From assembly GCA_963402885.1 (NCBI GenBank), contig OY727096.1:22053820-22117819 (forward strand): a stretch of 64,000 bases of DNA, given 5' to 3'. Within the stretch, counting starts at the first letter, position 1; each line of letters begins with the position of its first letter. The position numbers and the translations under genes are program-made. Below, piece after piece: positions 12,406 through 63,797 of the stretch. The stretch is from Antedon bifida (taxonomy: Eukaryota > Echinodermata > Crinoidea > Comatulida > Antedonidae). Below the pieces are notes generated by a model, which was not told where the DNA came from, ran no database searches, and saw only the letters and a program-made list of their open reading frames with translations.

Positions 12406-12618
12406 AATTCAATCAACCTCATTTTCAAAACATTCTGATAGCCGAATTTTTAAAACAAAATTAAAATCATCAAATCGCGAATAAGAGTACCGTATCCATC
12501 CATCATGTTCATGTTTTAAAGTATGTTTTTACAGACTATATTACAAACGGCAGTTTTCTTATAAAACGTTAGCAATGATGTCGCCAGACTTATACTAGGC
12601 CTATATTTTACTTTTCAT

Positions 12619-36900: not shown

Positions 36901-39900
36901 TAATATATAATTGATGATATTTCAAAGTGAAGTAAATTTAGGAAAATGACTACTGTCGAAAAGAGCCATGAAACTATGCCAATTTTTTTTTTTATGTTGC
37001 CCCTGCCTTTAGCAACTCAACTTGACTTTGGAATTTGTCACATGTCAGTTTCATTACGAACAAATTGGATCATTTATGTTACTCAAAAGTAATTAGTAAC
37101 ATATACAATAAAAATATTTAAAATAAAACAATTTAAAAGAAAGAGCTTTAGAGAGAAACTATGATTACATGAATTAACTTACGAATTTCACAGAAAGTTC
37201 CAGACCACTGCCCTTTACAAAGACATATGAATCCATCCACAAATGGAAAGCAATCACCACCATTAAGACAAGTATCATTTTGACATGTCGACTCAACTGA
37301 AATTTAACATTTTTACATTTATTCACATTATTTTGTGTGTTTTGGTTTAATTTTTAATTTATTTGTTCTGGACATGGTTATGTTCTGAAAATGATAAAGT
37401 AAAAAATGTATTTGTTCTGGATTGTACTTACTGGTTACTAGACATAAACATTACAGTATTTAATTTTGTTTATTTCTATAATTAATTTAATTGTGTACTT
37501 ACATGTGTCACAGTCAAAGCCAGTATATCCAGGTTGACAATCACACATGTAACTATTGGCTCCTTGGCTAAAACACACACCATTCACACAAGGATTACTT
37601 AAACAAGCATTTTTATCTAAAAACAGAAAACAGATATTTTTAGACTAAACTCAGTAGTTTAATACAATTACAACCTTGTTGGTGCAGTACCCGCTGCTTA
37701 CTTGGGCTTGAATCTAACCACTAGCCATCAGCGCAAGCTCAGTGGTCTTGAGGTATGAACGGCAGGCTAGTGATCTGGATTGGATTTGATTACTCAAATG
37801 TACTTAGTATGAAGTACAAATTACGTCAGAGTAGGGCAAAACACATGACCACTTACTTAACTCCCTGATGCAAAAGCTACTCCACAGTAGTTTAATACAA
37901 TTACAACCCTAGACTAAACTCCTTATAATGATAATTCAAAGAGGAAATGAAGTATAAAATGATAAAATAAGTAAACATGTTCAAAATAAAGATAATAGAA
38001 AGTCCTAGAAGTTCTTTTTGTTACATACCAAATTCACAGTTCGTTCCGTCATAGTTATCTGTGCAAGCACAAGTATAAGAAGTACAAGCGTCCTCACATG
38101 TACCTCCATTCTGACAAGGTGCGCTAACACAAGCAGAAACATCTAAACGAAATAATATAAATATACAGTACATGAATTAAAACTAGTATATAGCACAATG
38201 AAGTAAAACATACTGTAAACAATCAATCAATTACCAAAATAAACTGTTACAGCTATGGTGTAAATTTGATAAAACTCTGAATAATAAAATCTGAATTATA
38301 AGGAAAAAACAGGGTGTACAAAATGGAATATGTAAAAGCTTCCAAATATTGAAATAGGAATAGCAATGTTTTGGAGTAAATTGTATACTATGTTATTTAA
38401 AAACAATCAGTGTATCTATTGTTAACTGTAGCTATACACACAGAAATAGATTATATTAGGCCACAACAATTATTGAATGGTCTCCATAATCATACCATTT
38501 TGACAGAATTGACCAGAATGACAAGAGTCACAAGCACAGATGAAGTTTTCAGGTGTTGGCACACATGTGCCACCACTACCACACGGGTTATTTTCACAAA
38601 TATCTAACAATGAAAAAAAGGAAATTAAAAAATTATAAATTTAACATGAAGGCTATCATAATACAATGCACAGTTAGTTGGCTCTTCCATGTACAGATAG
38701 TGATCTTAATGTTTGTTTGTTGCCTACCACCCAATAAAGTGAGTTGAATAGTATGAGAATTGTGGTCTTTCAACTCTACTGTCACGCACGACACATTTTT
38801 ACATATTTTAACAAAAAGACCGATGAAATGTATTCATTATCTAATCTAATCTGTTAAATTAAACAATGTCATTTTATACTACTTACAATTTTGACAATTG
38901 TCTCCGGAATAACCGACAGCACATTCACAGGAGTAAAAAGAACACGAGTTTGTACATGTCCCTCCATTAATACATGGATTCCCATTGCACGCATTGATTT
39001 CTAAAAGAAATGATGAACAGAATTAGTATTGCTTGTGAGAGTCTAAAGCTCTGTCTACACTATCAAACTTTGTGACAGCAAAATGTGATGTGCCCATATA
39101 TGGATATGATGATGTCATATCACTACCATATTTGGACACATCATACTTTTTTTGTCAAACTAGTTTGATAGTGTAGACAGAGCTTAATAACAAAACGATT
39201 AAACAAACAAAAATATATCAGTTTGTAGAAAGTGCAGCCTGACTATGAAGTCAAGCTGAATGTAGTAAAACTAGTTGTTTATTACAACTATTATTTTTAA
39301 TTTTTAGTAGTGTCTGGCTAAAGCAAATTTTAAATGCTTACGTTCAGTGCAGAGTTGACCAGTCCAACATTCTTGGCATTGACATACAAAATCCTCTGTA
39401 TCTGGGCAACCATTATTACAAACACCTCCATTTTGACATGGCGATGAAGCACAGTTGTCTACAACTAAACAAATAACATACAATAGTTAATAATAATCGA
39501 CATTATAATAGCCTCTTTAACAAAATACTAATGACAATATATCTTTAATGTTAGTTTTTACGTTTACTTACGTATGTTACAGGTGCTGCCAGCCCAACAT
39601 TCAGAACACTGACAGGTAAATTCACCACATGAGTTTCCTTGGACGCAGTTACCTCCATTCATACAGGGCTGGGCCGCACATGCATTAATATCTATAAATT
39701 ATATAATTTCAACTTGAGTTAGCATTACAGCGTTCACTGGTTACTCAGATTGATTACGTTACGAAGAGTAAACACAGAGGCTTACTTATGTTTTGTGAAG
39801 AGGAGAATTACTGCAGCAACCAAAGAGAAATTACTGCAGTAACCCAAAGAATTTAGATTTATTAAGTCAAATCAATCAAGGTAATTGGAAAAAAAAGTTA

Positions 39901-42900
39901 CCTGTTTCACAGTTGGGACCAGATTTGCATACAGGACATGTACAGGTGTAACTACAGGTGGATGTTGATGCATCTAGCTGGCACACACCTCCATTCAAAC
40001 ATGGGTTATTTGGTTCACACAATGTTGCTTCTGAATTGAATAAAAACAAACAACGATTAATTATGTTCTATCACTAAACTGGTTTGTTTGTTTGTTTTGC
40101 GCTACCTATGTTGTTAACGTAATTACCTGTTTGGCATTGATTGCCACCGTAGCATGTTGGGCAGGTACAGGTGTACCCTTGACATAATCCATCAGGCACA
40201 CATTCACCCCCATTAAAACAAGGGTTGCTCTGGCATGGGTTCACATCTGAAATTGTAATTTTTTTAATTATATATATATATTTTTATTCAGCAAGTATTT
40301 ACCAAATATCATCTCTCTTAAGCTCTGTATATACTATCATACTTTATGAGATAAAAACAAGTGATGTGCCCATATATGGACATGATATCACTTCTATATT
40401 TTGGCCAAATTACACTTTTTTCTCAAACAAGTTTCATAGTATAGACAGAGCTTTAGAGGCAAGCACTTATTAGTTACTGAATGAATAATATTTGTTTGTC
40501 TTTATATTGTAAGGTGTGTATTAATTAGTGGATGAATCTTACTTGTTTGACAGTTAGTCCCACCATAGCATAGTGAGCACTGACATGAATAGGCTTGACA
40601 ATTAAATGCATCTACTTCACATACCCCACCATTTTGACAAGGGTTGGTGGAACAGCCATTCACACCTTGAGAAAAAAAAGAAACACAGTTTAAACTTCAA
40701 TATACTTAATAATAATATTAATAATAATAATAATAACTCTGATGAACTTATTCACTTAAATAAACCAAGGACACTAAAGCTCTGTCTACACTTTCAAACT
40801 AGTTTAAAAAAAAAGTGTGATGTTCCCAAATATGGTAGTGATATGACAACATCATTATGTCCATATATGAGCACATCACAATATTTTGTCACATAAAGTT
40901 TGATGGTGTAGACAGAGCTTTAGAAGAGTTTACAATCATTATTCTAACAAATGATTGATAGATAGCAAATGTAAAATTGTAAATAATAATAAAAGATGGA
41001 GAACATTTTTACTAAACTTACTGATTTCACAGAAAATTCCTGTATAGCATTGTGCACATTGACATCCAAAGTAACCGCAATCATTAACCGCTGGGTAGCA
41101 TTGACCTCCGTTTTGACATGGGTTACTCATGCATGAATTGGTATCTAATAAACAAAAACAACAGTATTTAGAGACTATGTAAAGTGATACAGTAAAATTT
41201 ACAGGACACTCTGGAAAGTTCAAAATGTATGGTTTTATTCAAATATTCAATAGTGTTGGTTATGTATGATAATATGAGATGTTTTACAAACCGATTTCAC
41301 ATCGATCACCAGTATAGCAACCACTACATTGACATGTGTAGTCTCCACATCCAACTCCACTCTCAGAGCAAACACCTCCATTGAGGCATGGGTTTGGACT
41401 GCAGCCTTGTGTAGCTGAAATAAAATATTTAACATAATTATAATGTGAATAAAACAATGAAGAAAAACTGTCACCACTTGACAATGGCAGATATAATACA
41501 TTCAGAGAGGTTTAGCCGAAGGCTAGAGGGCAGACTGTGTGGCAGTGAAGGTGGATCTTATTAAGAAATTCTCTACAAGATAGCTGTATTGGAGTTGATG
41601 ATCTAGCCTTCAGGTTTACGATCTTTGAATATATTACATCTTTCAGATGTGCTAAATTATTTCAATATCCAGGTCCAACAGAGATGGTTGCATTTGACCA
41701 GTCCTGTAGTATCATTACAAGTACCTCCTTCGTCATTCCCTCCTCTGTTACAGTAAACTAAAGCCTAATATTTCATAAACATATACTTTACCCATTTCAC
41801 ATCTGTCACCAGAGAAGCAACCAGTACATGTGCAGATAAAGACTGAGCAGCTAACCCCAGACGTTGAGCATACTCCTTGATTTAAGCATGGGTTTGATGC
41901 ACAGGGATTAGATACTAACAACATAAACAAAATAATAATTTTAGTAACAATGACTAGTAATCATTTACATCTGTACATGAAAAATTTTATTTTATAGAAA
42001 GTAAAACTATATTTGCTATTAAACTAACTTTTGGATTTCTTAAAAATCATATGTTTCTATATCCCCTCACTATGTAATGCAATAGATGCAACGCAAGGAT
42101 GCAAGTCCTCCGCAGGTGCTTTGACTAATCAGGCAACAGGTTATCCAATACTGTTTTATGATTGGTCAACTCCCTTGCATTCCAACTACATTGTTGCTTA
42201 AGCAAGGACATGTTTAAAGAAGAAGTGCTGCTGTCACCTCCTCAAATATTGTTTATTTCATTACTGGTATGAGTAGAAAAAATAAGTAGAAGTGAAGAGA
42301 ATTTCGAATTAACAACTTACATGTTTCACAGAAGTCACCAGTGTAACAATCAGAACATTGGCAGCTGTAATTACTACATGTGTTTACAGAAGATATACAG
42401 GTTGCACCATTCAAGCAGCCGTTGTTATCACAAGGATCCAAAACTATTAAAAGATAACATCATGTCAGTGTGAAAAGGTTTTATTTTTATTACAAGGATC
42501 AAAAACTATTAAAAGATAACATCATGTCAGTGTGAAAAGGAATTATTGTTATTACAAGGATCCAAAACTACTAAAATATAACATCTTGTCAGTGTGAAAA
42601 GAAAGAATTATGGTAGCTATTGAATGATAAGATTAAAACAGAAGCCACACTTTCACTCAAGATACATCTATTTACCTTCGTGAGCCTCAATCAATACTTA
42701 TTTTTATTGTAATCTATTTAGCTTAATTTGCAACTGCATAAGATGTAGACACATACAAAGCGGACAGAAAATTATAGTCTTTTGACATGTATAATGCCAC
42801 TACTTCACTGCCCATTTTGCATATTCAACTTACATGTTTCACAACTGGAACCTGTAAAACACTGTGGACATCCGCAAGTATAGCCAGAACATTGTCCAAC

Positions 42901-45900
42901 AACATTACACTGACCTCCATTTAAACAAGGGTTACTGGCACAAGGCTGTATACCTAGGAATTAATATAAATTGAATATCAATATTTGCTTTTTAAATCAA
43001 AGCACAATAAAAAAACGAATCAAAAAATGTGAATTATGATGTAATGATAATGGTAATACAGATGATATGATGGTGGTAATACTGATGATATGATGGTGGT
43101 AATGATGATGATGACTGTAATACTGATGATATGATGGTTGTAATGATGACAGTAATGATGATGATGATGATGATGGTAATACTGATGATATGATGGTGGT
43201 AATACTGATGATAATGATGATGGCAATACTGGGGCGGATTGCTATAAAACAGTCTTAACTCAAAAAATCAAAAAATGTGAATTATGATGTAATGATAATG
43301 GTAATACAGATGATATGATGGTGGTAATACTGATGATATGATGGTGGTAATGATGATGATGACTGTAATACTGATGATATGATGGTTGTAATGATGACAG
43401 TAATGATGATGATGATGATGATGGTAATACTGATGATATGATGGTGGTAATACTGATGATAATGATGATGGCAATACTGGGGCGGATTGCTATAAAACAG
43501 TCTTAACTGATGGTCTTAACTGCCCGATTAAAGCCGGCTTTATCAGATAGACGGTCTTACTAAAGCCACCCCTGTTAGACCATTGCTATAAAACAGTCTT
43601 AGAATAAGACTGCGTAAAGTAACAAATTGAGGGTGTACTTTGCGCGTAGAATACCAAATAACATAATGTTCATCACGCTTGTTCAATTCACAATCATAAC
43701 AGTACATACATTTCTACGCAAGAAAATCTATTTAAGGGCTATATAAGAATAAAATCAATGTTATTATTAAAAATCACTTAAAACTTGTTCAATTGTTTGT
43801 CTTTGACGATAAATAATATCTAAAAGCAACAAAAATAGAGGTTTAAGACTGGTTTAAGAATCCTTCGAGTAGGCTTTAATTCTAAAGACCGCTTACAGGT
43901 TAGACCGCGGTATAGCAATGGTCTATAATAAAGACTACTTGCTACGTCACGAATTATAGCCGGCTAAGCGCTAAGAGTAAGATCATTTATAGACCGCTTA
44001 TAGCAATCCGCCCTGGTGGCAATGATGACAGTAATGATGATGATGACTGTAATACTGATGATATGATGCTGGTAATACTGATGATATGATGATGGTAATA
44101 CTGATAATATGATGGTTGTAATGACAGTATTGATAATGATGATGGTAACACTGATGATATGATGGTGGTAATGATGACAGTAATGATGATGATAATGATG
44201 ATATTTATCATTTTGATGAAAATATAATAGCAAAACACCATCAAAATAGAATTTAAAAGTCAAAATCAGAAGAAAAACTCACTTATTTCACATGAATCTC
44301 CTTCCCAACAAGAAGCACAAGAACAGAAATGGGTGTCACACACACCTTGGAAACATACACCACCATTCTGACATGGGTTATTTAAGCATGTTCTTTGCTC
44401 TAAGCATTAAGTAAAGGAAAAAGAATACCACAAACATAAACAAATTATAACCCATAGAAACAGTAAAAAACATTTTAATTAACAAAATAAAAGAGAATTT
44501 CCCATAAACAAGATAAAATTAACAGAACAGAAATTAAGTCAGTGAAAATATAATTTAAAATAAATTTTAAAAATAATGATAAATTAAATAAATCTGAATT
44601 TTAAGCTCCTTCCACACTATCAAACTAGTTTGAAAAAAGTGTGATGTTCCCAAATATGGTAGTAACATGACATTATGATCATATTTTTTGTCACATAAAG
44701 TTTGATAATGTAGACAGAGATTAAAACAAATGTTTTTGGGAACACAACAAACTCCTAATGGATAATAGTGAGCCTTGAAATGGTGGTCTTATGGTGGAAA
44801 ATAAAGAAAAGAGGACATGCATTTTTTAGGTGAGGAATGGTTCTGGTAAAGTCTAATTTTTATTGGTCGATCACTAGGTGTCTAGCAATGACCAACTATT
44901 CACATTTAGTTTTGTCGAGGGAAATTTGAAAGTTCAATCTACATTTATCAGAATGCTTTTATTCAATTTCAGACTTTAACCGGGATATTAAAAATTGATA
45001 AAAAGTAAACTTACCAACTTCACAAAAGGTACCTGTAAAGCAACCAGTACAAGTACATGTATACGAGTCACATGATCCAGGCACTGGTGTACACGCTGCA
45101 CCATTCACACAGTTATTATTAAAACATGGGTCAGCCTCTGTAAAAATTAAAAAAATTGTTTAAAAACATACCATCTTCCCTGTTGATAAGGAACTGGAGT
45201 TACATAACCTTTTTCCAAACTTGTTTTTTTTTTTTACTAGAGTAATTTTGTTCTTTCATTGTAAATGTTATGTTTTTGTGCAGAGAAACAATAAAAACAA
45301 ACAAAACAAAGTTCCTGTTTTGGCGCCACATACCTTGTTCACAGAATTGTCCAGTGTAGCAGGCCGGACATATGCAGGAGACATCTGAGCAAGAGTTTCC
45401 ATTAGACTGGCAGGTACCTCCATTTTGGCATGGATTACTGTCACATCCATTAATTGCTGAAAAAGGGTCACATGACATTAATATATTTGCATTCAAGGGA
45501 TAAAAACAAACCAAACAGTGGTTGAATTACGAATTATATTTTTGCAGCCATTTGGCAACTTAGAAAACAATGTTGTCAGACACATACACACAGAAAGAAT
45601 ACAGATGTTTGAATCCATCAAGATTATGGACACATTCAAAATAAATAAATGTATATTTATAATTCAATTGGTCTGTAGATGGAAATTGGTCAATTGTAAT
45701 TGGAATGGTCTGCAAGCACTAACCTTCATCGCACAATACACCAGACCAGCAACCTGTACATTGACATGAGAAAGCTTGGCAGTTACCAGGAACTGATTGA
45801 CATAATGCGCCATTCTGACATCCAGAATTCTGGCAGGGATCCACAGCTAAAAAAAATCACAATATTCACATTACAAACACTGCATTCCAAGTTTGATTCT

Positions 45901-48900
45901 AGGTCTGACTCTGTTCCGATTAATATCATAACAAAATTGAACCCTTTCTTCATGTTAAATTTTCTCGTGTCAATGTATGTAAAAATGGTATTTTCTGTAG
46001 ACTCTCGTCTTTGTACAATTCATGTCTTTTAAAAAATAATTCTTTAGATATTTTTAACTGTAATTTTTCTCAATTTAAATGTATTATTAATGAAATTATT
46101 TAAATAATCTTTTTTTCATTTTGTATATATTTATATTGGCTCATATTTTATAGTTTAGTTATTTTATTTTCAACCTGTTATTGGTGTTTTACACTGTTGG
46201 TTTGAAATAAAGAATAAAGAATAAATAATACTTTAGAAATACTAACCTATCTCGCATTGATCCCCTTCCCAGCAGCCTTCACAGAGACAGACGAATGCAC
46301 TGCATGTAGTTCCTTGGGTGAAGCATTGGCCATTATTCTGACATGGTTGGCTACCGCATGGATCAACAGCTAAAAATACAAGTATTTTTGTACAGACAAT
46401 TAAAATATCTGCATAATTAGCAGGTCCTCAACTGATTTGAGCAAACCCTTGTTCCAGTTGTATAGGAATTAAGCATTGTATCATGTATAGTGTGAGTTGT
46501 ATTATATGCTCCTGATTGTGTATGGTATAATGTGGAAATACAGGAGCAGGCTGTGTCAATAGTGATAGAGACACACCCCATTAATTAAAGTATGCTACCA
46601 CATACTGTGTTATAAGTACTGGGATTGAGTACCTTATCACTAAACACTCATCCTCATGTACTCATCTGTCAAGAGCCTGTCTTTATTTAAACTCATTTCT
46701 CTAATATTGCTTTAAATTATACCATCATACCAACTAAGACTGGTCATATTATATTTTTAAGATTGCTAAAACGATTGGTTTTGATATCCATATACCTAGT
46801 ACTACTATATACTTACATATGGCACATGTGTCACCAGTATAACATGTTGGACAAAGACAGAGAAATTGTGTACAGTCATTCGCATCAACCGAACATATAC
46901 CATTCACACATGGATTGACTGCGCAGGGATTAATTACTGAAATGAAATAATCAGTGAATATACTACTAGACATGTATTTGATTTTCTAGGAATATGATCT
47001 GGTATTATTGAGAATATTTTTTTATATATATATAAAATGTAAAGGTGTAATATTTGTATTGGTTATATGAGGCGCCTTGAAGCTAAGGTGGTCTCACCCT
47101 GTGAGGCACCTTTGTGCAAAATATTGAATAAAAGGTGGGTATTATGTCCTAATGTGGGGAATGAGCTGTTAGCTGCTCATTGTATTAAGCCTCTGCATTA
47201 TGTGGCCCTTTCCTCACTGGTATATTTCAAAGCCAGTAACTTACGTGTACGACAGTGTGTTCCTGAGTAGCATGGTGTACACTGACATTGGTAAGTGGAA
47301 CAAGTTCCAGGTGCTGCACTAGTCATCATCATACATGTGCCCTCATTATTACATGGGTTACTCATACATGGATCGACAGCTATTACAAAGAAATTATACA
47401 AAGGTCCAAATTATCAAAAAAACATTCATACAGGTACCACATACAGCTCTGTCAACACTATCAAACTAGTGTGATGTGCCCAAATATGATAGTGATATGC
47501 CTAAATATGGTAGTGATATGACATCATCATGTCCATACATGGGCACATCACATTTTTTGTCACATAAAGTTTGATAGTGTAGACCGAGCTTTAGTCACAC
47601 ATTGGTCAACAGCTTAAATGTATTAAAGATGCAAATTAGCAAATAGAAATTACTGGATTTACAATGTAAAAATAGAAATTAATTTTGAGAAATATTAATA
47701 ATTTTTCATTTTAAAATGCTTTTCAACTTACCCTGAGAGCAGGTTGATCCTGTCCAGCAATTTGGACATTCACATATGTAACCAGGGCAACCACCAGATA
47801 CCTGTGTTGTTACTAAACAGGTTCCACCATTTGAACATGGGTTACTATCACAGGGGCTTATTACTTTAGGAAGAAAACAGAAAATATAAATAAATGAAAG
47901 AATCATAATACTTTCAGAACATATAAAAGCATGGTAAACACATACTGTTAAACCTTTCTATGTTTACTGGAAACAGTGGAAATTCAAGAAAGTCAGTCAT
48001 AGGGCCAAACCCAATCAAGCACACAACCATCATACATTTTGGAATAATATATTTAACTTGAAAAGATATCAATCATTTTGTGGAAATACAAGTCTGCATC
48101 TCCAGATATGGTGTAATGGCATCGAGACCATTACACCATATCTCTCTCTTTCTCCAGACATCTTCTCTGATAAATTGGGAAGACTGCAATTTGAATTCTT
48201 ACCATCTTGGCACATAATTCCTGTATAACAATCAACACAACTGCACACATAGGTTGAACAATCACCAGCTTGAATAATGGAGCTGCATACACCATTATTA
48301 GCGCAGGGGTTGCTGCTGCACGGATCAACAGCTGAAAAAAAATAATAAAAATGATGTAATGTGTTGTCTGCTAAAATTCAATTGCAAACAGTGTAAAGCT
48401 TTGTCTACACTATCAAACTTTATGAACAAAAAAAGTGTGTGCCCAAATGTGATAAAGTTTGATAGTGTAGACAGAGCTTAATACTGTACAATGGTGAACA
48501 GTTATAGTAAAATTGTACATAATGCAAATAATAGTACAGTATATTTATCTATAATTTATTTCTTTAATTGATACCTTGAAATGTTAAACATTTATTTTTG
48601 GTTCTGAGTGAGACTGTTTTTATTCCAGTGATCTGCAAATGGACTACATCCTCAAATAAAATGCACCTTTCTTCAGTTTTCAGACTATTCAGTACATTCA
48701 GGTTAGACAAGTGGTAATTAATATTTTGACTTACGTATAGCACATGTATCACCACTCCAACATCCAATACAATTACATAAATACTCAGTGCATACCCCAT
48801 TCACGACTGGCCGGCACTGACCTCCATTCGCACATGGCGAGTTCTCGCATGGATTTGTCTCTGTATACAAACAAACAAAATATATTTAGAAAGAATTTCA

Positions 48901-54900: not shown

Positions 54901-57900
54901 AAAACATTTATTTCTGTTTCACAAGAAAGTGTCCCCTTAATAAGGGTGTCCTCTGTATAGGGGTGTCCCAAAGAAGAGGTTCTACTGTATGAGGGTAACT
55001 TACACTGATCACAATATCGTCCTGTAAAGCATTCTGTACAGAGACAAGAAGTAAGAACACAGCTCGGATCTTGCACACACTGTCCACCATTTTGACACAA
55101 ATTCTGTGTTGCACACAAGTCAGTTGCTACAAAATAAAAATGTTATCCATTAATGTTTACAAATAAAGATTTTTGTTACATAATTTTAAATTTCTAAACA
55201 CAGTGAGCATAATATTTTCAAGAAGGCTACAGTATGGGCTTCTTCTAATGTTCTCCATAAATATAAATTTAATTTTACCTACCAAATCTCTAAAACTGCT
55301 AAGATAAAATATAATTAGCCATGTAAAGAAGAATAGAGTACAGGCCTTATAGATTTTACAATGTATATGGTGATGCGTTATTCTACTTACGAGTTTCACA
55401 TTGAGCACCCTCATAACATGCTGGACATGAACAGGTGTATTGAGTACATCCATCTGGGCTACAAACTCCACCGTTAAAACATTGGCTTGGATTGCATGGA
55501 TCAAGCACTAAAATAAATTACAATTACTGTATTATATCTTTGGTGTTCTTAATAAAAAAATTAATTGAAGTTAAATAAGAAATATCAAGATTATGTTATT
55601 ACAGTCAACTTAGTTCAGATTTAAATCAGCTACAGTACAGGATACGTTCAGTAAATAATAAAGTATCTCTATAGGTTTCCACTGAATAGGAGTTGACCAA
55701 AGTGCTAAAACATATATATATCCCTCATTGTTTGTTTCTGAACTGGGGTGCTACAAAGGAGGGGTTCTATTTACTGTACTTACATATGTCACATGTTGGT
55801 CCTACATAACATCCAGTGCATGTACAAGTATACTCAGTGCAGGAGTTGTCTGCTGCGTGACAAAATGCTCCATTTTGACAAGGTGTGTTATCACAAGGAT
55901 CTATCACTGAAATGAAAAAAATGATACAAATTCATAGTAGAGCACCTAGAGTAAAGTTATTTAAAGAAAAGATGAGGACCCTACCCTAAAGCTCTGTCTA
56001 CACTATCAAACTGTATGTGACAAAAAGTGTGATAGTGTAGACAGAGCTTAAGGAATGAAGGGTCAAGTATCAAGTATGCTATCATAACATTGAATTCAGT
56101 TAATGTAATAATAATATTGATTTTTTCACACTTACAATTGGCACAGTTATAGCCTTCAAAGCAACCAGTGCAAGTACAGTTGTAGCTTTCACACGTATCC
56201 AAGCCAACACAAGCACCTCCGTTCATGCATGGAAAAGTCTCACACGGATCAATTCCTTAAGAAACAGAAAAAAGGTAAGAAAAAATGTAACGTTATTTTT
56301 CCTTAACTTCTAATATATAAGCCTATTCTAACAAAGTACCAACGTTATATGTTTGTAACATAAAATTTATTTTTAATGATTCAAAATTGTTGTTATGAGA
56401 TATGGGAAAGACAAACTAGAGAATCTTACTGTTCTGGCAAAAAAATCCTTCATAGCAAGCGGGACAAGAACATGTAAAGCTATCACATGTTTGTGGTACA
56501 CGTTGACAGGTACCGCCATTTTGACATAATTGAAACAAGCAAGGTGTAGTGTCTGAGAAAGAAAAAATAAGTAGGTAGGTTACAGTTGGTTGAAGTCGCC
56601 TCATTGAATCATAACAAATATCAGGTATAGCCTGTTTTCCACTTTGTAAATTTAGTTGTGTGAATCCAATGTTTTAACACAGAAACAAACTGCGCTAGGC
56701 TTTCCACTAAAAGAGCAAATAGCTGCTGAGCTCTGATCTGTTGCAAAATTGTTTGCTTTGAATAAATTTAAAAAAAACAGAATTTGTTGCAAAACAGGAT
56801 TTAGAAGATGAAAACACATGTGTATAAGCTGATGCCCTTCGATTCGTGTGAACAAATTCTCTTAGTGGAAAACAGGCTTAAGTCACAAATGGTAGGCATG
56901 CATGCATATTCATTGGGTTAGAGATTGGATAAAATACTTACAGATTTCACATTGGTCGCCACTGTAACACTCAGGGCATGTACACTGAAAGGCTTGGCAG
57001 GAAACTGATGAGGTGGAGCATGTTCCACCAGATAAACATGGCAATGAAAGGCATGGATCTTGGACTGTGGACAGGTTAATTAAAACATATTTTACTTTCT
57101 AGTTCAATACGACATTTATTTTTTATCAATAAAACACAGATACATATTGTCGCACAATTTTAATTATGTATTTTGTGAAACATCAATAAAAGAAGAAAAA
57201 TTCTAGCACTTACATTCTTCACAATTAACACCAGTGTAGCAAACTGGACATGTACACTGGTAATTCTGACAGCCCCTTTCTACACAAAAACCTCCATTTT
57301 CACAAGGGTTAGGCACACATGGTTGAAGCACTGCAAAAAATAAAAGTATCCATATGATGAACAATGTTCTTCATAAAGTATATAAATATTCTCATCAGTT
57401 TAAATTCAAGAATAAGACACAACCAAACAGTGCTCATTTGTTGGGGCTGCTTCTTCTTTGAGAAATGGACTATCTTCTTGAATGTGTACACAAACGAAAT
57501 ATGTACAATGGATCTCCAGTTTCACTGGAAGACTTGTTCTACTAGAACAATGGTCAAGAAGAGAATTGTGCTGATTTTATGCTTATACTTTGCAAGTAAT
57601 CCTTCCTTACCCGCTTACTCAACAATATACCCACTCCACCCTATAAAAAATGATTTTACTTACCATTTTCACAGCGAGTACCACTGTTACAGGTTCCACA
57701 AACACAGAAAAATGATGTACATCCGAATGTCAAACACTGACCATCATTTTGACATGGGTTAGAAAGACATGAATCAGTACCTTAAAATTAATTGTTTATT
57801 AATTATTAATTCATTGCTGTTCCACTGTACTATGTGAACAGTCACAAAAGTTTATATTTAAGTCTTTATCAAGCAAAATATGAAAGAGTTTTTCAATATC

Positions 57901-60900
57901 TAAAAAGTACTGTATATAAAAAAAATGGAGTTTGTTTGGATTATGATAAAACAAAAAAGGGGAAAACTCACTTATCTGGCAATGTTCACCCTCAAAACAT
58001 CCACTACATTGACATGAATATGTGTTGCAGTCATCACTAATTCTACACAGACCATGGTTTACACAAGGACTGTTTTCACATGGATTGATTGCTAAAAAAA
58101 AAAATTCATTCAACTTAATTAATATCAGGTTTGATAGGACCGTTCCATGTATTTTGAGGAATGTGCTCTACTTACGTATTTCACAGTTTACTCCAGTAAA
58201 ACAGCCTTGACAAGCACAAGTATAGGAGTTACAGTTGTTTGTACACATTCCACCATTTTGACAAGGACTGCCTTCACAAGCATCAATAACTAAATAAAAT
58301 CAAAATAAAATCAAATTATCAAACTACCGAAGAAAACTTTCAGGGGCGAATGCAAAAAAAAAACAACTATGATTGAAAAGTTAACGTTTGGCTGGTAGCC
58401 AGGGGCTGTATACTTCCCCCAAAGGCCACCCTCCCTTGTATAAATCCCTGACTTTTTCCAATTTGTAGCACTGCATAGGGTAAACTGCAAGATGAGAGAA
58501 ATGAGGAAAAGTACCTTTATTACAGTTACTACTATTATGGTAAATTAATATATTAAAACATTAAAAAAATAATTTCTAATGTAAGCTACAGCAACTATCC
58601 TGTTGATACTCAGTGGCGTAACACAGAGGCCTCTGAGGCCCTTGGTTCAGAAACCCTAAGTGGCCCAGCAATGCTTTAGATGTTTTCGACGTATTTTAAA
58701 GCCTGTTGCTTCCTCTGGGCTCTGCTCAGGGGCCTCTGTAAGCTCCGGAGCCTCTGTGTTACGCCATTTAGCACTCATAGCCGTTAACTGTATTAAATAG
58801 AGACAAACAAAATATATCATGTAACCTTTACTTAATGATAAGCTTACCAACTTCACAATTTGGTCCACTAAAACAATTTCCACACAAACATCGAGTATTG
58901 GGACATTCATTGACACAAGTACCCATGTTAAGACATGGGGTATTTTCTGCACATAAATCTCGAGCTGTAACAACAATGATGTAATAAAGTTATTGAAAAT
59001 ACAGTATGTGTGTAGAAATTTAATTCCAGAAGATACTAACACCACCATCTAGTTTTTTTTTTATCCTGTATGAAGGTTTTAATGTCACTATTTGTCACTC
59101 AACAATTAAAAGAAGTAATGTATGTCTGTTAAATATTGTTACACGACTCGTTTTTATTATATATCATTTCAGGTGAAATACAGTACATACAAAGATTTAA
59201 AAAGAATATCAGCATTACAAACAACGATTAAATGGCCAACTTTTTTTGTATTATTACATATTTAGGCAAATTGCCAAGGATAACCGTGAGCGAATTCATT
59301 CACTATCATTCTTAAAGGTGCCAATCATGTTCACAACAAGACAAACATATACACAAGATGCTGTACATAAACAAAGTCTTATTACAAGTCTTTGGGAGTG
59401 GAGTTGTAATTTGTCATTAGAACAAATCCCGACATATGACAGGACTTGAACCCAGGACCCTTGAATTGGTAGCCATGCACCATAACCACCAAGCCACAAC
59501 TACTCCACTCCACTTATTTCAAATGGGGTGCATATATTGTAATGTATATTGTACCACAGAGGTGCAATTGATAAATATACACTCTGTTATCAGTCTGTAC
59601 ATCCTATTGTACCAGCATCAGTAGGCCTGCTTGATTAATGCAGGGGTTACATGGGGTCACTCTTACCTGTCTCGCAAAAGTCCCCAGTAAAACAAAAAGG
59701 ACAATCACAATTGATTGATTGACACTCAGTTGTCATGGAACATACAGCGCCATTCTGACAAAGGTTCTGACTCAAGCAAAGATCGACATCTAGAAAAAAA
59801 CAAGTCAAAAACTAAAATGTCAAGACTATCAACATGTCAATATATGGATGGTGATGATGGTAGTGCGGCATTGATGGTTTGATTGATGATGGTGGGTATG
59901 GTGAATGATAATGGAGGTGATGATGATATTCATGCTGATAAACACTGTATTCTATATTATAACATACTCCAGAGTGATGAGATGAGTGTGAAAGGAAACT
60001 GCATGATGCTAACATACGAAAGTTCAACGATGATCGTTTGAAAACGATCAAGTTGAAATGATAACGATAGCGAGTACCTTTTCCTGTATATCGTTAACAT
60101 TTCAATGTTTACGTAGAAGATCGCCGATTATTGTTAACAATAGCGTTGAATAACGTCGACAGGAAAACAGGCTTAAGAATACCAAACATTTTTTCTGTTA
60201 ATTGATATTTTACTCATTTTTAGCCTTCATTGATTTTATATTTGATTGCTAATTGTACATATATGTTGATATTTTTTCTATCTGTAAAAATATATATGCA
60301 TCTCAGCCTTTGACTGCAATGTATGCTTTTTAATACCTTGAATAATAATAATAAAACAAACTTACTGACTGAACAGCTAGGCCCTGTGAAACATGGGTCA
60401 CAAGCACATGTAAACTGTGTACAATCACCAGGCACAGCACGGCATTCACCTGCATCTGAGCAGGGTCCACCTGCACACGGATCATCAACTGCAAAGTAAA
60501 TTTAACATGACATTTTAAAAATAATATTAATAACATATACAACAAACATATAGATTAGAAATAAACTTCAAAAAGATATTCAAAATCATCAACTAGTAAT
60601 CATTATAAAGAATACTAATAACAGAATAAATGAATTATTAAAATAATGATAAAGGATTATACTTACAATTTTCACAGAATGTACCACTGTAACATCCTGG
60701 ACATTGGCATGTAAGGTCAATGCATGACCCAGATGTAGGTTGACATACTCCTTGGTTTTGGCATGGACTTACAGCACATTGGTTTATTCCTGTAGGACAC
60801 AAAGCATACAAATTACAATGAAAAAAAAAACCCAAAACAAAACGTAGCTCTAAGAAAATTGACTAAATTAATTCTTACTTGATGCGCATGTAATACCCTC

Positions 60901-63797
60901 ATAACATGAATCACAGATACACTGAAATGAGAAACAACTCGTCTGAACACATGTTCCACCATTTTCACAATGATTGTTTGAGCATGGGTCCAACACTGTA
61001 AACAAAACAATAAGAATACACAATCATTTTTCATAAACATTGTGATGTTGGAGACCTAAAATTAATAAAACAGTGACCTTTTGTTTTCACGTTATTCCAC
61101 TATGCAGTGGAGTGACAACATTATTCTTAACTTAACAGCTGCCCTATCAATGTATACGTACATGTTTGGCAGTTGGTTGATGTGTAACATCCAGCACATT
61201 GGCACGTGTAACTTGTGCATGATCCAGGCACTTGTAAGCATGTTCCTCCATTACTGCATGGTGCTGCTGTGCAAGGATTTATCTCTACAAAGATAAAAAA
61301 TAAAATTATGTCCACACTATTTAGATGAAAAAAACAGTTATTTTACTACCATCGCAATAGCATAACAAAAATTTTAAAAATGAAATAATTGTTATAGCTC
61401 ACATTTCTATGATAACTAATTCTAGTGCTCTAGTGGCCCAAATGTGGTATTGATATGATGTCATCGTGTCCATATATGGGCACATCACATTTTGTTGTCA
61501 CATAAAGTTCGATAGTGTAGAGAGAGCTAAGGTCCTGTGTTCACATCATGTACTACTGCTAATTATTTACTCACCTGTTTCACAATTGGCTCCTGTAAAA
61601 CAGCCTTGACAGATGCATTCATACTGGTCACATGTGTTAGATGATATTGCACAGTTGCCACCATTCAAACAAGGTGTAGTCGCACATGGATCAGGCACTA
61701 AAAGATAATAATTTATTTGATATTTAGTTCCTTGTAAAAGATTCAATTAACATGAGGAAGAAAGAAAATGTAGATATATATAAACAATGCTGTGGGTATC
61801 AGTGGCTGGATAAACTATAAAATAGTGTGAAAAAAGTTAGTAAAAAAAAGTGTAAGTAAAAACACATGAGGTCATGACAAAATTATGCAGTAACTTCAGT
61901 AGATCAATTAAAAATAATACTTACATGTAGCGCAGGTCATTCCTGTGTAGCAGCCAACACATGTACAGCTAAAAGCTGTGCATGACAATGCAGTGCAAAC
62001 TCCTCCATTATCACATGGGTTGTTACCACAAGGATCTTGTACTGTTGAAAGAAAGAAAGAAAGAATGTTTTACATTGAACTATATGTTAGCCATTCTATA
62101 AAAATAATCAGTTAGCCAATCAGTTTCACTGCTTCTCTGTTATTACACACAACTCATAAAATACAGACTTTTGATTGAATGAGACTTAAACCACATTGTG
62201 AGTGTCAGCCAATCAGCTTGATTGCTTCTCTGTTATCACACACAACTCATAAATACAGACTTTTGATTGAATAAGACATCAGGTTGTCTCTAAAATCTGA
62301 CATGCAAATAAAACTTACAAACAGAGCAGAAAGTTCCAGTGTAACATCCTTGACAAATACAGGTGTATGCATCACATGATCCAGTTGTTCTTTGACAAAT
62401 TCCACCATTTTCGCAAAGGTTTCCGCTGCACTGATCCAAAACTTTAAAAAAATATCAAATATATTTCACAATGTAATTAATGGAAAGAAGAAATTATAGT
62501 ACAGTATGAAATATTATATTATAGTTATTACTATTATTAGTGAAATGGGCAAGTGGAAAAGACCATATCTAAAGAGCCAACAATCGGCACAGGTTTGAGG
62601 TCGACTATCTCCTAGTTCTGGTGGTGGAACAGAGAAAGACTATAAACTGCCAGTGTACACAGTTTGCCTGTGTGCACTTTAAAGAACCCAATCTCATTAG
62701 AGACGAGTAAGGGGTTTTGTGAACTTTGTCACAAAAAAGCCACCACCTATCTGATAGAACAGTGATTAATTTACTATTGGTAATCCTTGGCCATGTGCCT
62801 AAAGACTTATTAATTATAATTAAATGATTATTGTTTAAGTCAGTACTTACATGTACCACATGTACTTCCAATATAACACAATGGGCATTGGCATTCATAA
62901 TGTATACATGAGTCAGCAACAGGAGAACATGTTCCAGAATTGAGACATGGATTTACAGCGCATTGATCAATTCCTACAAGACAACAAATTGAAAAGCATT
63001 TATGTTTATAGTAAGCAGATGTCCAAAAGAATATTTAGAGAGCATCCATTGCCACATATCTAAACACTAAGCACACTAAGTTTTATTGTTTGCCTACATC
63101 CTTAGAGAAATTAATTTCTCATCAATGTCCAAAATGGATACAATTTCACAAAGCTATTATTATTATTCATAAATATATAATATTAATAATTTCTACTAGA
63201 TAGTTTGTACTGAGCTAACAATTTAGTAAAAAGCTAAGAAACAGACTTACTTGTTTCACAGTTGTTACCAGTATAGCATGACTGACACTGGCAATGGTAC
63301 AGGGTACATGACCCAGGTGTACGGCTACAAAATCCTCCATTTAGACATGGATTTGGGCTACATTGGTCCAAAACTAAACAAATATGAATTAATTTAAATA
63401 GGATTGAGTAATTCCATTCACAAATATACTAAATAACATACTCTACTCAATTGTCAAGCAAAACAGGCTAAGCATTGAACTTGACTGTTAGTTGATTAAA
63501 CCAAACCACAAAGTGGTAAAACGTGTTACTGGCCTGTCTTGTATACATATTTATATGCACAACTAAAAAATTACACAATATTAATTGTCATCAAAGAAAT
63601 TGAAATTGAAGACTTACAATTAGTTATGGACAAAATTACACAATATTAATTTTCATCAAAGAAAAAAGACTTACAAACAGCGCAGTTGTCACTTTCATAA
63701 CAGTTCTGACACTGGCAACTATACTGATCACATGTACCAGCAACTTGGCTGCACAATCCCCCAAATAAACATGGGAAGGAGTTACATGGATTTTGTA
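30746..63797 (-). CDS. giant type I membrane protein with at least 73 EGF-like domains and one CUB domain (5' end outside window)
   Basis: One minus-strand gene in 75 visible exons, all with GT-AG borders and phase-1 introns at both ends, so each exon is one domain. Order from the N-terminal side: 59 eight-cysteine EGF exons (63797 to 39342), three seven-cysteine EGF exons (39000 to 38029), two six-cysteine EGF exons, a CUB exon, nine six-cysteine EGF exons and a terminal exon with membrane segment and tail. That is over 3,000 residues in the window; signal peptide and start lie beyond 64000. EGF/CUB membrane proteins act in cell adhesion, as receptors or as matrix components. Many domains carry the C-x4-[ST]-C pattern used for O-fucose on Notch-type EGFs. 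Fibropellin and Notch are the nearest well-known architectures, but neither has this cysteine pattern, so I give no symbol. Confidence 0.9.
30973..32625 (-). other. 1.65-kb intron before the first EGF exon
   Basis: AT-rich intron without supported coding exons. Near 31735 and 32319 it carries pieces of an interspersed repeat (GTGCACTTCAAAGAACCC and its complement) that recurs at about 62680. Confidence 0.4.
32626..36067 (-). CDS. EGF gene: nine ordinary six-cysteine EGF exons next to the membrane
   Basis: Exons (plus-strand coordinates): 32626-32739, 33160-33273, 33532-33651, 33900-34013, 34142-34252, 34756-34872, 35252-35371, 35617-35724, 35951-36067. Those I translated have six cysteines in the normal C-C-C-C-x-C-x8-C spacing, with GY or GF before the last cysteine (for example [12 protein letters not shown]). 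Several begin with a calcium-binding signature: FDEC (first exon), DVNEC (second), DSDEC (fourth) and DIDEC (sixth). Lengths are 108-120 nt. They would form a rigid calcium-bound stalk between membrane and CUB domain; that is inference from the family. Confidence 0.9.
32900..33075. mobile_element. possible remnant of the AGCCTGTTTTCC-ended MITE
   Basis: The right end AATGGAAAACAGGCTTTAG (to 33070) matches the end of the elements at 56629-56878 and 60060-60177. The left end is not clear. The body is GC-richer than the flanking intron and yields an incidental plus-strand open frame. Confidence 0.35.
34503..34666. mobile_element. palindromic MITE (copy 10), EGF gene intron
   Basis: Long form, 164 bp, with the AAATATGGTAGTGATAT unit doubled. 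Ends AAAGCTCTGTCTACACTTTC and GATAGTGTAGATAGAGCTTT. Confidence 0.88.
34982..35113. mobile_element. pogo-like MITE in EGF gene intron
   Basis: Left CAGTCAACTCCCCCAATACC and right GTATTGGGAAGGTATAATTG. Same family as 26845-27013, with a decayed right end. Confidence 0.65.
35508..35577. mobile_element. palindromic MITE fragment (copy 11)
   Basis: Right half: TGTCCATATATGGGCACATC to TATAGTGTAGACAGCACTTA. Confidence 0.7.
36516..36878 (-). CDS. EGF gene: CUB domain exon lacking the second disulfide
   Basis: A single 363-nt phase 1-1 exon codes 121 residues with the CUB pattern: [18 protein letters not shown] at the start, then [26 protein letters not shown] and [19 protein letters not shown]. Only two cysteines are present (ESQC and DNC), which form the first disulfide of the family. 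The second cysteine pair usual in CUB domains is absent; at its first position the sequence reads MNDWLEV where many CUBs have CDYLEV-like sequence. The domain interrupts the EGF series and was inserted as a symmetrical exon. CUB domains mediate protein-protein contacts, often through calcium. Confidence 0.92.
37183..37616 (-). CDS. EGF gene: two six-cysteine EGF exons on the N-terminal side of the CUB domain
   Basis: Exons 37183-37296 ([12 protein letters not shown], ending [14 protein letters not shown]) and 37503-37616 ([11 protein letters not shown], ending [14 protein letters not shown]), each 114 nt. They keep the ordinary six-cysteine pattern. The first lacks the usual aromatic before the TG/SG turn in its exact place (GQW). 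Confidence 0.9.
38029..39000 (-). CDS. EGF gene: three seven-cysteine EGF exons at the transition
   Basis: Exons 38029-38142, 38496-38603 and 38887-39000. The outer and inner ones (38887-39000, [18 protein letters not shown]; 38029-38142, [18 protein letters not shown]) have an extra cysteine in the loop between cysteines 3 and 4 but not the one before the aromatic. The middle one (38496-38603, [18 protein letters not shown]) has the opposite: no loop cysteine, but the CxCxxC motif. They lie exactly between the six-cysteine and eight-cysteine parts of the gene. Confidence 0.88.
39045..39185. mobile_element. palindromic MITE (copy 12), EGF gene intron
   Basis: Near complete: AAAGCTCTGTCTACACTATC at the left and GATAGTGTAGACAGAGCTTA at the right, 45 nt from the exon ending at 39000. 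Confidence 0.88.
39342..42953 (-). CDS. EGF gene: eight-cysteine EGF exons, block 1 (10 exons)
   Basis: Exons 39342-39464, 39572-39691, 39902-40030, 40127-40246, 40543-40665, 41022-41144, 41292-41414, 41792-41914, 42321-42443, 42834-42953. Typical translation of 41292-41414: [12 protein letters not shown], then [20 protein letters not shown]. The pattern is C-x3,4-[PG]-C-x-N-G-x2-C-x(n)-C-x4-C-x-C-x2-C-[YWFHK]-x-G-x2-C. Relative to a normal EGF, one cysteine is added in the loop between Cys3 and Cys4 and one before the aromatic of the GY turn. The two probably pair. All phase 1-1. The first exon, 39342-39464, reads [18 protein letters not shown]. Confidence 0.92.
40319..40454. mobile_element. 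palindromic MITE (copy 13), EGF gene intron
   Basis: Diverged copy: TTAAGCTCTGTATATACTAT at the left and CATAGTATAGACAGAGCTTT at the right. Confidence 0.82.
40776..40921. mobile_element. palindromic MITE (copy 14), EGF gene intron
   Basis: Near complete: AAAGCTCTGTCTACACTTTC at the left and GATGGTGTAGACAGAGCTTT at the right; TA flanks on both sides. Confidence 0.88.
42430..42601. repeat. 62-bp tandem repeat that copies a splice acceptor
   Basis: About 2.8 units starting at 42430, 42492 and 42554, each ACAAGGATCMAAAACTAYTA followed by ACATCATGTCAGTGTGAAAAG-like sequence. The first unit includes the 5' edge and acceptor of the EGF exon at 42321-42443, so two extra acceptor-like sites stand in the intron. 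Confidence 0.85.
43019..43508. repeat. recent tandem duplication, 248-bp period
   Basis: 43019-43260 and 43267-43508 appear identical. Each unit holds a GATGATATGATGGTGGTAAT-type minisatellite and, at its right end, the first 30 or so bases of the inverted-repeat element starting at 43482. Confidence 0.88.
43482..44012. mobile_element. 530-bp inverted-repeat element inside a minisatellite
   Basis: The left end GGCGGATTGCTATAAAACAG and the right end (other strand: GGCGGATTGCTATAAGCGGT) are inverted. The element contains further inverted pieces (AAAACAGTCTTA, AGACCGC, TAGCCGGC) and no coding capacity. CTGG stands on both sides (CTGGGGCGG, CCGCCCTGG), a possible 4-bp target duplication. The superfamily is not recognised. 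Confidence 0.72.
44013..44212. repeat. continuation of the GAT-rich minisatellite
   Basis: The same units as at 43027-43230 (GATGATATGATGGTGGTAAT, GATGACAGTAATGATGATGA) continue beyond the transposon, showing that it inserted into an existing repeat array. Confidence 0.75.
44283..50358 (-). CDS. EGF gene: eight-cysteine EGF exons, block 2 (15 exons)
   Basis: Exons 44283-44399, 45015-45137, 45334-45456, 45724-45846, 46247-46369, 46817-46936, 47245-47379, 47732-47863, 48203-48331, 48735-48860, 48968-49093, 49205-49327, 49656-49778, 49951-50073, 50236-50358. The loop between Cys3 and the extra cysteine varies most in length: 47245-47379 and 47732-47863 are the longest exons of the series (135 and 132 nt). 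Representative ends are [12 protein letters not shown] (45334-45456), [12 protein letters not shown] (48968-49093) and [12 protein letters not shown] (49205-49327). All phase 1-1. The intron 48861-48967 is only 107 nt. Confidence 0.92.
44603..44722. mobile_element. palindromic MITE (copy 15), EGF gene intron
   Basis: Internally shortened: AAGCTCCTTCCACACTATC at the left and GATAATGTAGACAGAGATTA at the right. Confidence 0.8.
47445..47592. mobile_element. palindromic MITE (copy 16), EGF gene intron
   Basis: Long form with the AAATATGGTAGTGATATG unit doubled; ends AGCTCTGTCAACACTATC and GATAGTGTAGACCGAGCTTT. Confidence 0.87.
48395..48480. mobile_element. palindromic MITE (copy 17), short form
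   Basis: Only 86 bp: AAAGCTTTGTCTACACTATC at the left and GATAGTGTAGACAGAGCTTA at the right, with nearly the whole centre lost. Confidence 0.85.
50706..54773 (-). CDS. EGF gene: eight-cysteine EGF exons, block 3 (12 exons)
   Basis: Exons 50706-50819, 50963-51076, 51367-51489, 51624-51740, 52021-52143, 52371-52493, 52784-52906, 53303-53419, 53615-53737, 54179-54298, 54394-54507, 54660-54773. This block has the shortest members (114 nt), in which the loop before the extra cysteine is reduced to two or three residues, for example [18 protein letters not shown] (50706-50819), [18 protein letters not shown] (50963-51076) and [18 protein letters not shown] (54394-54507). In 51367-51489 the aromatic is replaced (GCSMGTYC). 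All eight cysteines remain in every one I translated. Confidence 0.92.
51569..51600. mobile_element. palindromic MITE fragment (copy 18)
   Basis: Left end only: AAAGCTCTGTATACGTTATC, then AAACTTTTTTTG, 24 nt from an exon. Confidence 0.55.
53095..53165 (+). mobile_element. tRNA-derived SINE head fragment
   Basis: AGCTGTAGCTTGGTGGTTAA resembles an A box region and GAGTTCAATCCTGACC a B box, in the usual spacing. No tail is recognised. Confidence 0.4.
54000..54120. mobile_element. palindromic MITE (copy 19), EGF gene intron
   Basis: AAGCTCTGTCTACTCTATC at the left and GATAGTGTAAACAGAGCTTT at the right, centre partly deleted. Confidence 0.85.
54832..54989. mobile_element. pogo-like MITE in EGF gene intron
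   Basis: Left end ATAACTCCTATTAAAAAGAC is decayed. The right end AGAAGAGGTTCTACTGTA is well kept. The inside has GTGTCCCCTTAATAAGGGTG and AGTGTCCCTGAATAGGGG. Confidence 0.65.
55004..59789 (-). CDS. EGF gene: eight-cysteine EGF exons, block 4 (12 exons)
   Basis: Exons 55004-55126, 55391-55507, 55784-55906, 56136-56255, 56430-56552, 56942-57064, 57214-57330, 57664-57780, 57972-58091, 58176-58289, 58848-58964, 59667-59789. Examples: [12 protein letters not shown] (55004-55126), [12 protein letters not shown] (56136-56255), [12 protein letters not shown] (57664-57780, aromatic replaced by Asn) and [12 protein letters not shown] (58848-58964). Exon 58848-58964 has one extra residue between the first two cysteines (CAENTPC). 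All phase 1-1. Confidence 0.92.
55988..56050. mobile_element. palindromic MITE (copy 20), minimal 63-bp hairpin
   Basis: AAAGCTCTGTCTACACTATC and GATAGTGTAGACAGAGCTTA stand only about 23 nt apart, giving almost a pure hairpin. Confidence 0.9.
56629..56878. mobile_element. 250-bp MITE with AGCCTGTTTTCCACT ends
   Basis: A 15-bp perfect terminal inverted repeat (AGCCTGTTTTCCACT / AGTGGAAAACAGGCT). The inside has no coding capacity. The same end occurs at 60060-60177 and possibly 32900-33075. Confidence 0.78.
59395..59515 (-). mobile_element. tRNA-derived SINE
   Basis: On the minus strand GTTGTGGCTTGGTGGTTATG (A box) precedes GGGTTCAAGTCCTGTC (B box) by the usual distance, followed by a non-tRNA body. 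This is the best-kept SINE of the window. Confidence 0.55.
59850..59935. repeat. GATGRTGG-rich microsatellite
   Basis: Imperfect GATGGTGATGATGG and GATTGATGATGGTGG units in an EGF gene intron. It yields an incidental minus-strand open frame rich in His, Tyr and Ser. Confidence 0.6.
60060..60177. mobile_element. MITE of the AGCCTGTTTTCC family, left end unclear
   Basis: Right end GACAGGAAAACAGGCTTAAG. The preceding sequence has AACGATAGCG and GTTAACAATAGCGTT inverted pieces; it is CG-rich for this window. Confidence 0.45.
60366..63797 (-). CDS. EGF gene: eight-cysteine EGF exons, block 5 (10 exons, gene continues beyond window)
   Basis: Exons 60366-60488, 60667-60789, 60879-60995, 61162-61284, 61575-61697, 61925-62041, 62319-62441, 62851-62973, 63251-63373, 63675-63797. 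All are 117 or 123 nt and phase 1-1. The glycine after the aromatic is lost in 61162-61284 (CYTSTNC) and in 63675-63797 (CYESDNC). The exon 63675-63797 is preceded on its 5' side by an acceptor (GTACTGTAG-type context, complement), so at least one more exon lies beyond 64000. Confidence 0.92.
61432..61530. mobile_element. palindromic MITE (copy 21), left end lost
   Basis: Runs from GCTCTAGTGGCCCAAATGTG to GATAGTGTAGAGAGAGCTA. Confidence 0.75.
62113..62278. repeat. direct duplication, 103-bp period, in EGF gene intron
   Basis: Both units contain AGCCAATCAG, CTGCTTCTCTGTTAT or its variant, ACACACAACTCATAAA and ACAGACTTTTGATTGAAT. A few substitutions and small gaps separate them. Confidence 0.8.
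62560..62790. repeat. interspersed repeat with GTGCACTTTAAAGAACCC
   Basis: The block GTGCACTTTAAAGAACCCA (about 62680) recurs as GTGCACTTCAAAGAACCCA near 32319 and in reverse near 31740. It is probably the body of a SINE; ends are not resolved. Confidence 0.4.
63566..63675. repeat. 65-bp duplication carrying a decoy splice donor
   Basis: AAAATTACACAATATTAATT and TCATCAAAGAAA occur twice, each followed by GACTTACAA. The right copy is the true donor (complement GTAAGTC) of exon 63675-63797; the left copy near 63612 is a duplicate donor without an exon. Confidence 0.8.

Follow-up and report, generated by a model that had tools for sequence, protein, structure and literature searches.

What do the additional cysteines of an eight-cysteine EGF-like (epidermal growth factor-like) domain bond to when such domains follow one another in a long tandem? 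The question is raised by a gene on the minus strand of a 64,000-nucleotide stretch of the genome of the crinoid Antedon bifida (assembly GCA_963402885.1, contig OY727096.1, positions 22,053,820 to 22,117,819; this whole stretch is the window). The gene comes into the window from the high-coordinate end and contains an array of at least 59 EGF-like domains, each with two cysteines more than the usual six. From the pattern of these cysteines we predict that each domain is quite probably disulfide-bonded to its neighbour, the second added cysteine of one domain to the first of the next, giving a rod that would not depend on calcium, as many such rods do. We also consider it probable that the array represents a distinct class of EGF tandem, the stapled EGF rod: at each junction, the two adjoining domains would be locked together by a disulfide between one added cysteine from either side, both dedicated to this purpose.

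An array of eight-cysteine EGF-like domains

The array runs on the minus strand from position 63797 down to 39342 and consists of 59 exons of 114 to 135 bases, each encoding one eight-cysteine EGF-like domain. We number the domains from D1 (63675-63797; pattern scan and exon reading), the first within the window, to D59 (39342-39464; exon reading), the last to carry both added cysteines. Since the window edge cuts the array, 59 is a lower bound. All 59 exon lengths are divisible by three, and together they encode 2392 residues. The 58 introns measure 84-1329 bp with a median of 277. The intron between D49 and D50 holds, in a simple-repeat region, two identical 248-base tandem copies (43018-43508, 100% match), which may be of very recent origin or stem from the assembly. 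Splice sites were assigned on the genomic DNA by a script that searched for AG acceptors and GT donors near each domain in phase 1 only, and it found such a pair for every domain of the array. With phase 1 on both sides, the exons could be joined in any number with the frame unbroken.

A six-frame scan of the window with the strict motif C-x-C-x2-C-[YWFHL]-x-G-x2-C gave 55 matches on the minus strand, one of which is D61, just beyond the array, and none on the plus strand. The full eight-cysteine pattern identified 58 domains in a scan of the whole minus strand; neither the plus strand nor any of 20 mononucleotide shuffles yielded a match. The 59th domain (exon 39342-39464) is clipped by the regular expression and has its eight cysteines once it is read as an exon. 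The original prediction, made from this DNA without database searches, placed the array exactly to the base (63675-63797 through 39342-39464), and its eight cysteines per domain, read there from about 50 of the 59 translations, extend to all 59 exons.

One of the added cysteines (Ca; calcium is spelled out throughout) lies in the loop between Cys3 and Cys4, and the other (Cb) lies in the Cys5-Cys6 loop, directly before the aromatic residue of the C-terminal turn. Both are present in 59/59 domains, at the positions originally proposed. Ca precedes Cys4 by five residues in 57 of the 59, by four in D57 and by eight in D59. Cb immediately precedes the aromatic position in every domain; the residue at that position is Y, F, W or H in 56/59 and so is less constant than the cysteines.

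With the cysteines left out, the median identity between two domains is 27% (5-95% range 17-40%, maximum 53%), and there is no clear higher-order period, the mean identity being 0.25-0.29 at all offsets from 1 to 34. Both cysteine codons are used at Ca (41 TGT, 18 TGC) and at Cb (32 TGT, 27 TGC). Low identity together with mixed cysteine codons leads us to reject a recent duplication or an assembly artefact, and we read low identity with fixed cysteines as probably an old duplication under strong selection for the eight cysteines. The proposal of a repeated, conserved eight-cysteine subfamily is thereby sustained, both cysteines being kept in 59/59 domains despite the 27% median identity.

Location of the added cysteines in the EGF fold

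The AlphaFold2 model of D29, computed from the alignment of the 59 domains, is EGF-like, with a mean predicted local distance difference test score (pLDDT) of 89.9 and a predicted template modelling score (pTM) of 0.56. A Foldseek search with this model matched EGFs of Notch, Del-1 and clotting factors, with template modelling (TM) scores of 0.83 to 9b3n and 0.84 to 9b3g. Notch1 EGF4-7 superposes with a root-mean-square deviation (rmsd) of 0.6 over 37 columns, and the top chains of Notch1 EGF20-24, Notch1 EGF21-23 and Del-1 with 0.8-1.1; the domain being short, none of the 154 matches has E ≤ 0.001. The single-domain structure prediction that had been suggested at the outset thus yields a model resembling canonical Notch EGFs.

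In a profile alignment to Notch1 EGF8-12, the Ca column coincides with the hairpin isoleucine of EGF12 and the Cb column with the glycine before the aromatic. At the Notch EGF11-12 junction, a tyrosine packs on an isoleucine and a glycine of EGF12 (PMC3415683), which we take to be the hairpin Ile-Gly of the aligned sequence. At the fibrillin EGF2-EGF3 junction, the interface at a 4 Å cut-off includes the glycine that precedes the aromatic in one domain and, in the next, a proline situated between Cys3 and Cys4 (PMC3794157). Given these contact positions, Ca should face the previous domain and Cb the next, and the two would hence sit at opposite ends of one domain in the canonical fold. Three Notch EGF domains form a rod of 100 x 24 x 20 Å (PMC3415683); at about 33 Å per domain, simple arithmetic suggests that Ca and Cb of the same domain should be approximately 25-30 Å apart.

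Probable pairing of the added cysteines across domain junctions

We counted Cb(n) and Ca(n+1) over the 72 junctions between D1 and D73, the EGF domains of the gene within the window. Both cysteines are present at 60 junctions and neither is present at 12 (one of which has a CUB domain in between); no junction is mixed. The same count made within domains gives 59 with both, 11 with neither and three mixed among the 73.

The three mixed domains directly follow the array. D60 (38887-39000, minus strand; Pfam EGF E 1.1e-9) has Ca only and a glycine at the Cb position; D61 (38496-38603, minus strand; E 2.7e-6) has Cb only and is joined to D60 by a four-residue linker; D62 (38029-38142, minus strand; E 2.3e-7) has Ca only and an asparagine at the Cb position. 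D63 (37503-37616, minus strand; exon reading) is an ordinary six-cysteine EGF. From D59 to D63 the added cysteines are therefore both, Ca, Cb, Ca and none. When Cb(n) is paired with Ca(n+1), the four successive junctions are paired, empty, paired and empty, with zero cysteines left over. Ca only, Cb only, Ca only is the sole arrangement of the eight possible that leaves no unpaired cysteine between D59 and D63. The 60 junctions with both cysteines are thus made up of 58 inside the array together with D59-D60 and D61-D62. Pairing in the opposite direction, Ca(n) with Cb(n+1), was rejected: it leaves the D59/D60 and D62/D63 junctions mixed at the array end. An additional domain hidden between D59 and D63 is unlikely, because the whole-strand scan found none.

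The junctions with both cysteines also differ from the others in their linkers. The Cys6-Cys1 linker has six residues at 60/60 of them and at 7/11 of the remainder (CUB junction aside; the D60-D61 linker is among the exceptions), which gives a Fisher p of 3.4e-4 when the shared ancestry of the repeats is ignored.

Calcium sites were assessed with the consensus D/N-x-D/N-E/Q-Cys1, D/N after Cys3 and an aromatic before Cys4. The full consensus is found in 0/59 array domains, 0/3 of D60-D62 and 4/11 of D63-D73 (D68, D70, D72 and D73). The ligands at -4, -2 and -1 occur together at 0/60 junctions with both cysteines versus 4/12 of the others (p 4.8e-4, likewise ignoring common ancestry). In the array, the losses concern position -4 (kept in 4/59), position -1 (5/59) and position Cys3+2 (5/59). 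The picture is one in which junctions would be held by a staple, by calcium, or by neither.

On this reading, Cb, which precedes the packing aromatic at the C-terminal end of one domain, would bond to Ca of the following domain, located in its major hairpin turn. The site of the staple would be the one at which, in calcium-binding EGFs, the aromatic packs against the hairpin of the domain that follows, and the staple would replace calcium as the stiffener, the calcium consensus being broken throughout the array. The product would be a calcium-insensitive rod, about 0.2 μm long if the Notch repeat length holds, that leads, by way of a CUB domain and EGFs of the ordinary and calcium types, to a membrane anchor. 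The boundary domains would each carry half a staple. At the other end, Ca of D1 is predicted to pair with Cb of a domain past the window edge. We infer that the stapled rod would be stiff. Its most likely role is that of a surface tether or spacer; length, composition and the membrane anchor are what suggest a stiff tether at the surface.

Several points weigh against neighbour pairing or the rod drawn from it. The array-end pattern is good but small evidence, as it comes from three domains only; given three single-cysteine domains, a fit of this kind has a chance of 1 in 8. With the positions of two Ca and of two Cb taken as random among 14, they would coincide at this shift with a chance of 1 in 91, and the shift was picked post hoc. 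The p-values for linkers and calcium ligands take no account of the repeats' common ancestry, and beyond D64 the linker lengths depend on which splice sites the script selected. Two array domains, D57 and D59, have Ca at a shifted position. The calcium site is partly kept in the array, with D/N at -2 in 49/59 domains and an aromatic before Cys4 in 48/59. The mutual information between residues of the Cb loop and of the hairpin exceeds chance a little in both cases, slightly more so within a domain (z 2.26) than with the next domain (z 1.67); offsets of -3 and -1 give z 1.62 and 1.48, and covariation on 59 domains does not separate the pairing models. Finally, Notch junctions to a non-calcium EGF have been described as bent (EGF5-6) or flexible (EGF9-10) (PMC4826273). 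A third such junction, EGF21-22, is straight (PMC12979247). Because junctions of this kind can be bent, flexible or straight, the rod geometry is assumed here.

Alternative fates of the added cysteines

The original prediction joined Ca and Cb of the same domain in a fourth disulfide, so that each domain would be a self-contained four-disulfide EGF fold. The co-occurrence of Ca and Cb in 59/59 array domains suits this arrangement, as does the slightly higher covariation within domains. However, D60, D61 and D62 carry exactly one extra cysteine each, so that three would be left over; these single cysteines fit neighbour pairing only. Moreover, a canonical EGF makes contact with the domain before it through its hairpin turn and with the domain after it through the aromatic motif, and the separation calculated from the Notch rod length (PMC3415683) would be far beyond disulfide range. 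The structure predicted from the array's own alignment, which resembles canonical Notch EGFs, also speaks against a rearranged domain of this kind. We therefore regard a fourth disulfide inside each domain as unlikely, and in our analysis it gives way to bonding between neighbours.

The added cysteines might instead bond other molecules or stay as free thiols, producing a cross-linked or sticky surface layer. There is a precedent in teneurin, where cysteines in EGF2 and EGF5 dimerise the protein covalently (PMC9058538). Such a layer, however, does not require that both cysteines occupy neighbour-contact positions, and it requires neither strict neighbour pairs at the array end nor a fixed six-residue linker. 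We hold it to be very unlikely. That the array is a decaying or mis-assembled set of repeats without a working product is scarcely credible, as 59/59 exons are open with candidate splice sites in phase 1-1, and all eight cysteines are kept, with both codons in use, at 27% median identity in the remainder of the domain, the opposite of what would be expected.

Classification of the domains

The EGF cysteine order is present in 59/59 domains, which places them in the EGF-like family PF00008. At a lenient E ≤ 1, 50 of the 59 match this profile and nine do not; D29 reaches 25.6 bits, above the cut-off of 21.5. In a profile search of the PDB, the best sequence matches are Notch and Delta chains; 105 distinct sequences match the array profile at E ≤ 0.01, and 38 match D2 alone. 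In the five best PDB alignments of each search (profile, D2 alone), no chain has cysteines at both added positions. The domains thus appear to be EGF-like and of Notch type, and the array would be filed as a variant of EGF tandems.

The 59 members match 18 Pfam families, none of which is a specific family that fits, in keeping with the earlier remark that no named EGF class is known to have this pattern. Laminin-EGF, integrin-EGF and CFEM are absent from the 18. The laminin-type EGF is an eight-cysteine tandem module with its extra pair after Cys6. In the array, in contrast, Cys6 is followed by just the six-residue linker, and the extra cysteines are in the Cys3-Cys4 and Cys5-Cys6 loops in 59/59 domains. 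CFEM is a fungal eight-cysteine domain that is called EGF-like; its profile fits none of the 59 members. The cysteine spacing of the domains is Notch-like, and integrin-type EGFs pair their cysteines 1-5, 2-4, 3-6 and 7-8 (PMC12383024). With the extra cysteines in those two loops and no laminin-EGF family among the Pfam matches, the domains are not of laminin type; the Notch-like spacing and the absence of an integrin-EGF family from the matches suggest that they are not of integrin type either, as had been claimed.

Sequences of the form C2-x4-[ST]-C3 (O-fucose) and C1-x-S-x-[PA]-C2 (O-glucose) are present in 18/59 and 16/59 array domains, respectively. We take these forms to be the Notch-type sugar-site consensus.

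Remainder of the gene

Downstream of D63 the gene continues on the minus strand with D64 (37183-37296; exon reading), a second ordinary six-cysteine EGF. It is followed by an exon encoding a CUB domain (36516-36878; Pfam CUB E 5.6e-20) and by nine more six-cysteine EGFs, D65-D73 (32626-36067), which include the four with the full calcium consensus. A scan of viral contigs with the CUB exon alone as query gave 86 pattern matches and no relative. The last exon (30746-30972) encodes a short stalk, a hydrophobic stretch and, judged by eye, a tail of about 31 residues, and ends in a stop codon. The hydrophobic stretch, also read by eye, is a probable transmembrane helix. The product is probably a very large type I membrane protein; the domain order is taken from the DNA, and from it we infer the splicing and the membrane topology. 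Both the arrangement of exons and introns and the set of domains indicate an animal gene.

Other features of the window

Two further stretches of interest lie on the plus strand. The first (17652-18149) has a SPRY domain (17652-17834, E 8.6e-12) and, after it, a SOCS box (17904-18149, E 8e-6); it is an SPSB-type gene. The second (23534-26332) shows several hydrophobic segments, identified by eye; further along, at 26198-26332 (E 4.4e-9), it has part of a class 3 lipase with the motif GHSLGG. It resembles a diacylglycerol lipase; two pieces tried from upstream of the lipase piece had no match in the PDB. On the minus strand, the region 10123-12449 contains a reverse transcriptase of the long interspersed nuclear element (LINE) type (10126-11496; Pfam RVT_1 E 6.2e-30, with PDB matches to LINE-1 and R2). 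An open frame that overlaps it (11379-12449, minus strand) has no Pfam match above its cut-off. Tandem units of 21 bases that are alike (GTGATATGCCCAAATATGGTA-like or its reverse complement) occur at 16586-16634, 27795-27840, 34544-34593 and 47471-47520, and the four sites probably represent a single host-genome repeat family.

Comparison with known EGF tandems

The closest counterparts of the array domains are the Notch1 EGF repeats and other calcium-binding EGF tandems, with which they share the EGF fold (TM score 0.83 to Notch1 EGF20-24), the best PDB sequence matches, the aromatic of the Cys5-Cys6 loop and the contact position on the hairpin. The aligned Notch EGFs contain six cysteines, and calcium stiffens many of the junctions between Notch EGFs (PMC4826273), whereas the array domains have eight cysteines and 0/59 show the full calcium consensus.

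A disulfide between consecutive EGFs is known from integrin beta3, where the last cysteine of EGF1 is bonded to the first of EGF2 (PMC12383024). There it concerns a single hinge junction and framework cysteines of integrin-type domains, whereas here we propose 60 junctions, two added cysteines and Notch-type domains. The scallop byssal protein Sbp9, with 49 EGF repeats, is a long EGF tandem like the array (PMC13348336), and long tandems of this kind serve as byssal material in scallops (PMC6244088). Sbp9 is described with a six-cysteine EGF pattern and calcium-aided dynamic exchange. It provides the nearest idea that we found, set apart by the absence of a dedicated added pair; the available text describes neither such a pair nor fixed pairing of neighbours. 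Octovafibrin, the octopus egg tether, is a load-bearing tandem of 29 EGF repeats and resembles the array in that respect, but each of its repeats has three intramolecular disulfides (PMC10336842).

Three other candidates were set aside. The twelve cysteines of mussel Pvfp-5beta belong to two EGFs with six each (PMC9314366); the "eight conserved cysteines" of flatworm Mlig-ap1 are those of a C8 domain and not of an EGF (PMC6410801); and the two additional cysteines of fibrillins are in the arthropod hybrid domain, again not an EGF (PMC3306419). In the literature searched, which included few subscription journals and passages of papers, we found no EGF class with both Ca and Cb and no EGF tandem with a fixed staple at all junctions.

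In NOTCH3, changes in the number of cysteines per EGF are associated with disease, and mispairing is the leading explanation put forward (PMC11883389). Unlike these changes, the array keeps its extra cysteines paired in 59/59 domains, in the sense that Ca and Cb always occur together.

On the established view, the disulfides of modular extracellular proteins usually lie within individual modules. An example is the LDL receptor, which acquires 30 intradomain disulfides on folding (PMC4500599). If the pairing proposed here is correct, the approximately 60 inter-module staples of the Antedon array would be a systematic exception to this view. They would also pose a problem of oxidative folding, as each staple would need the neighbouring domain to be already present, and they would supply a rule, found in nature, for designing EGF rods that are stiffened covalently and need no calcium.
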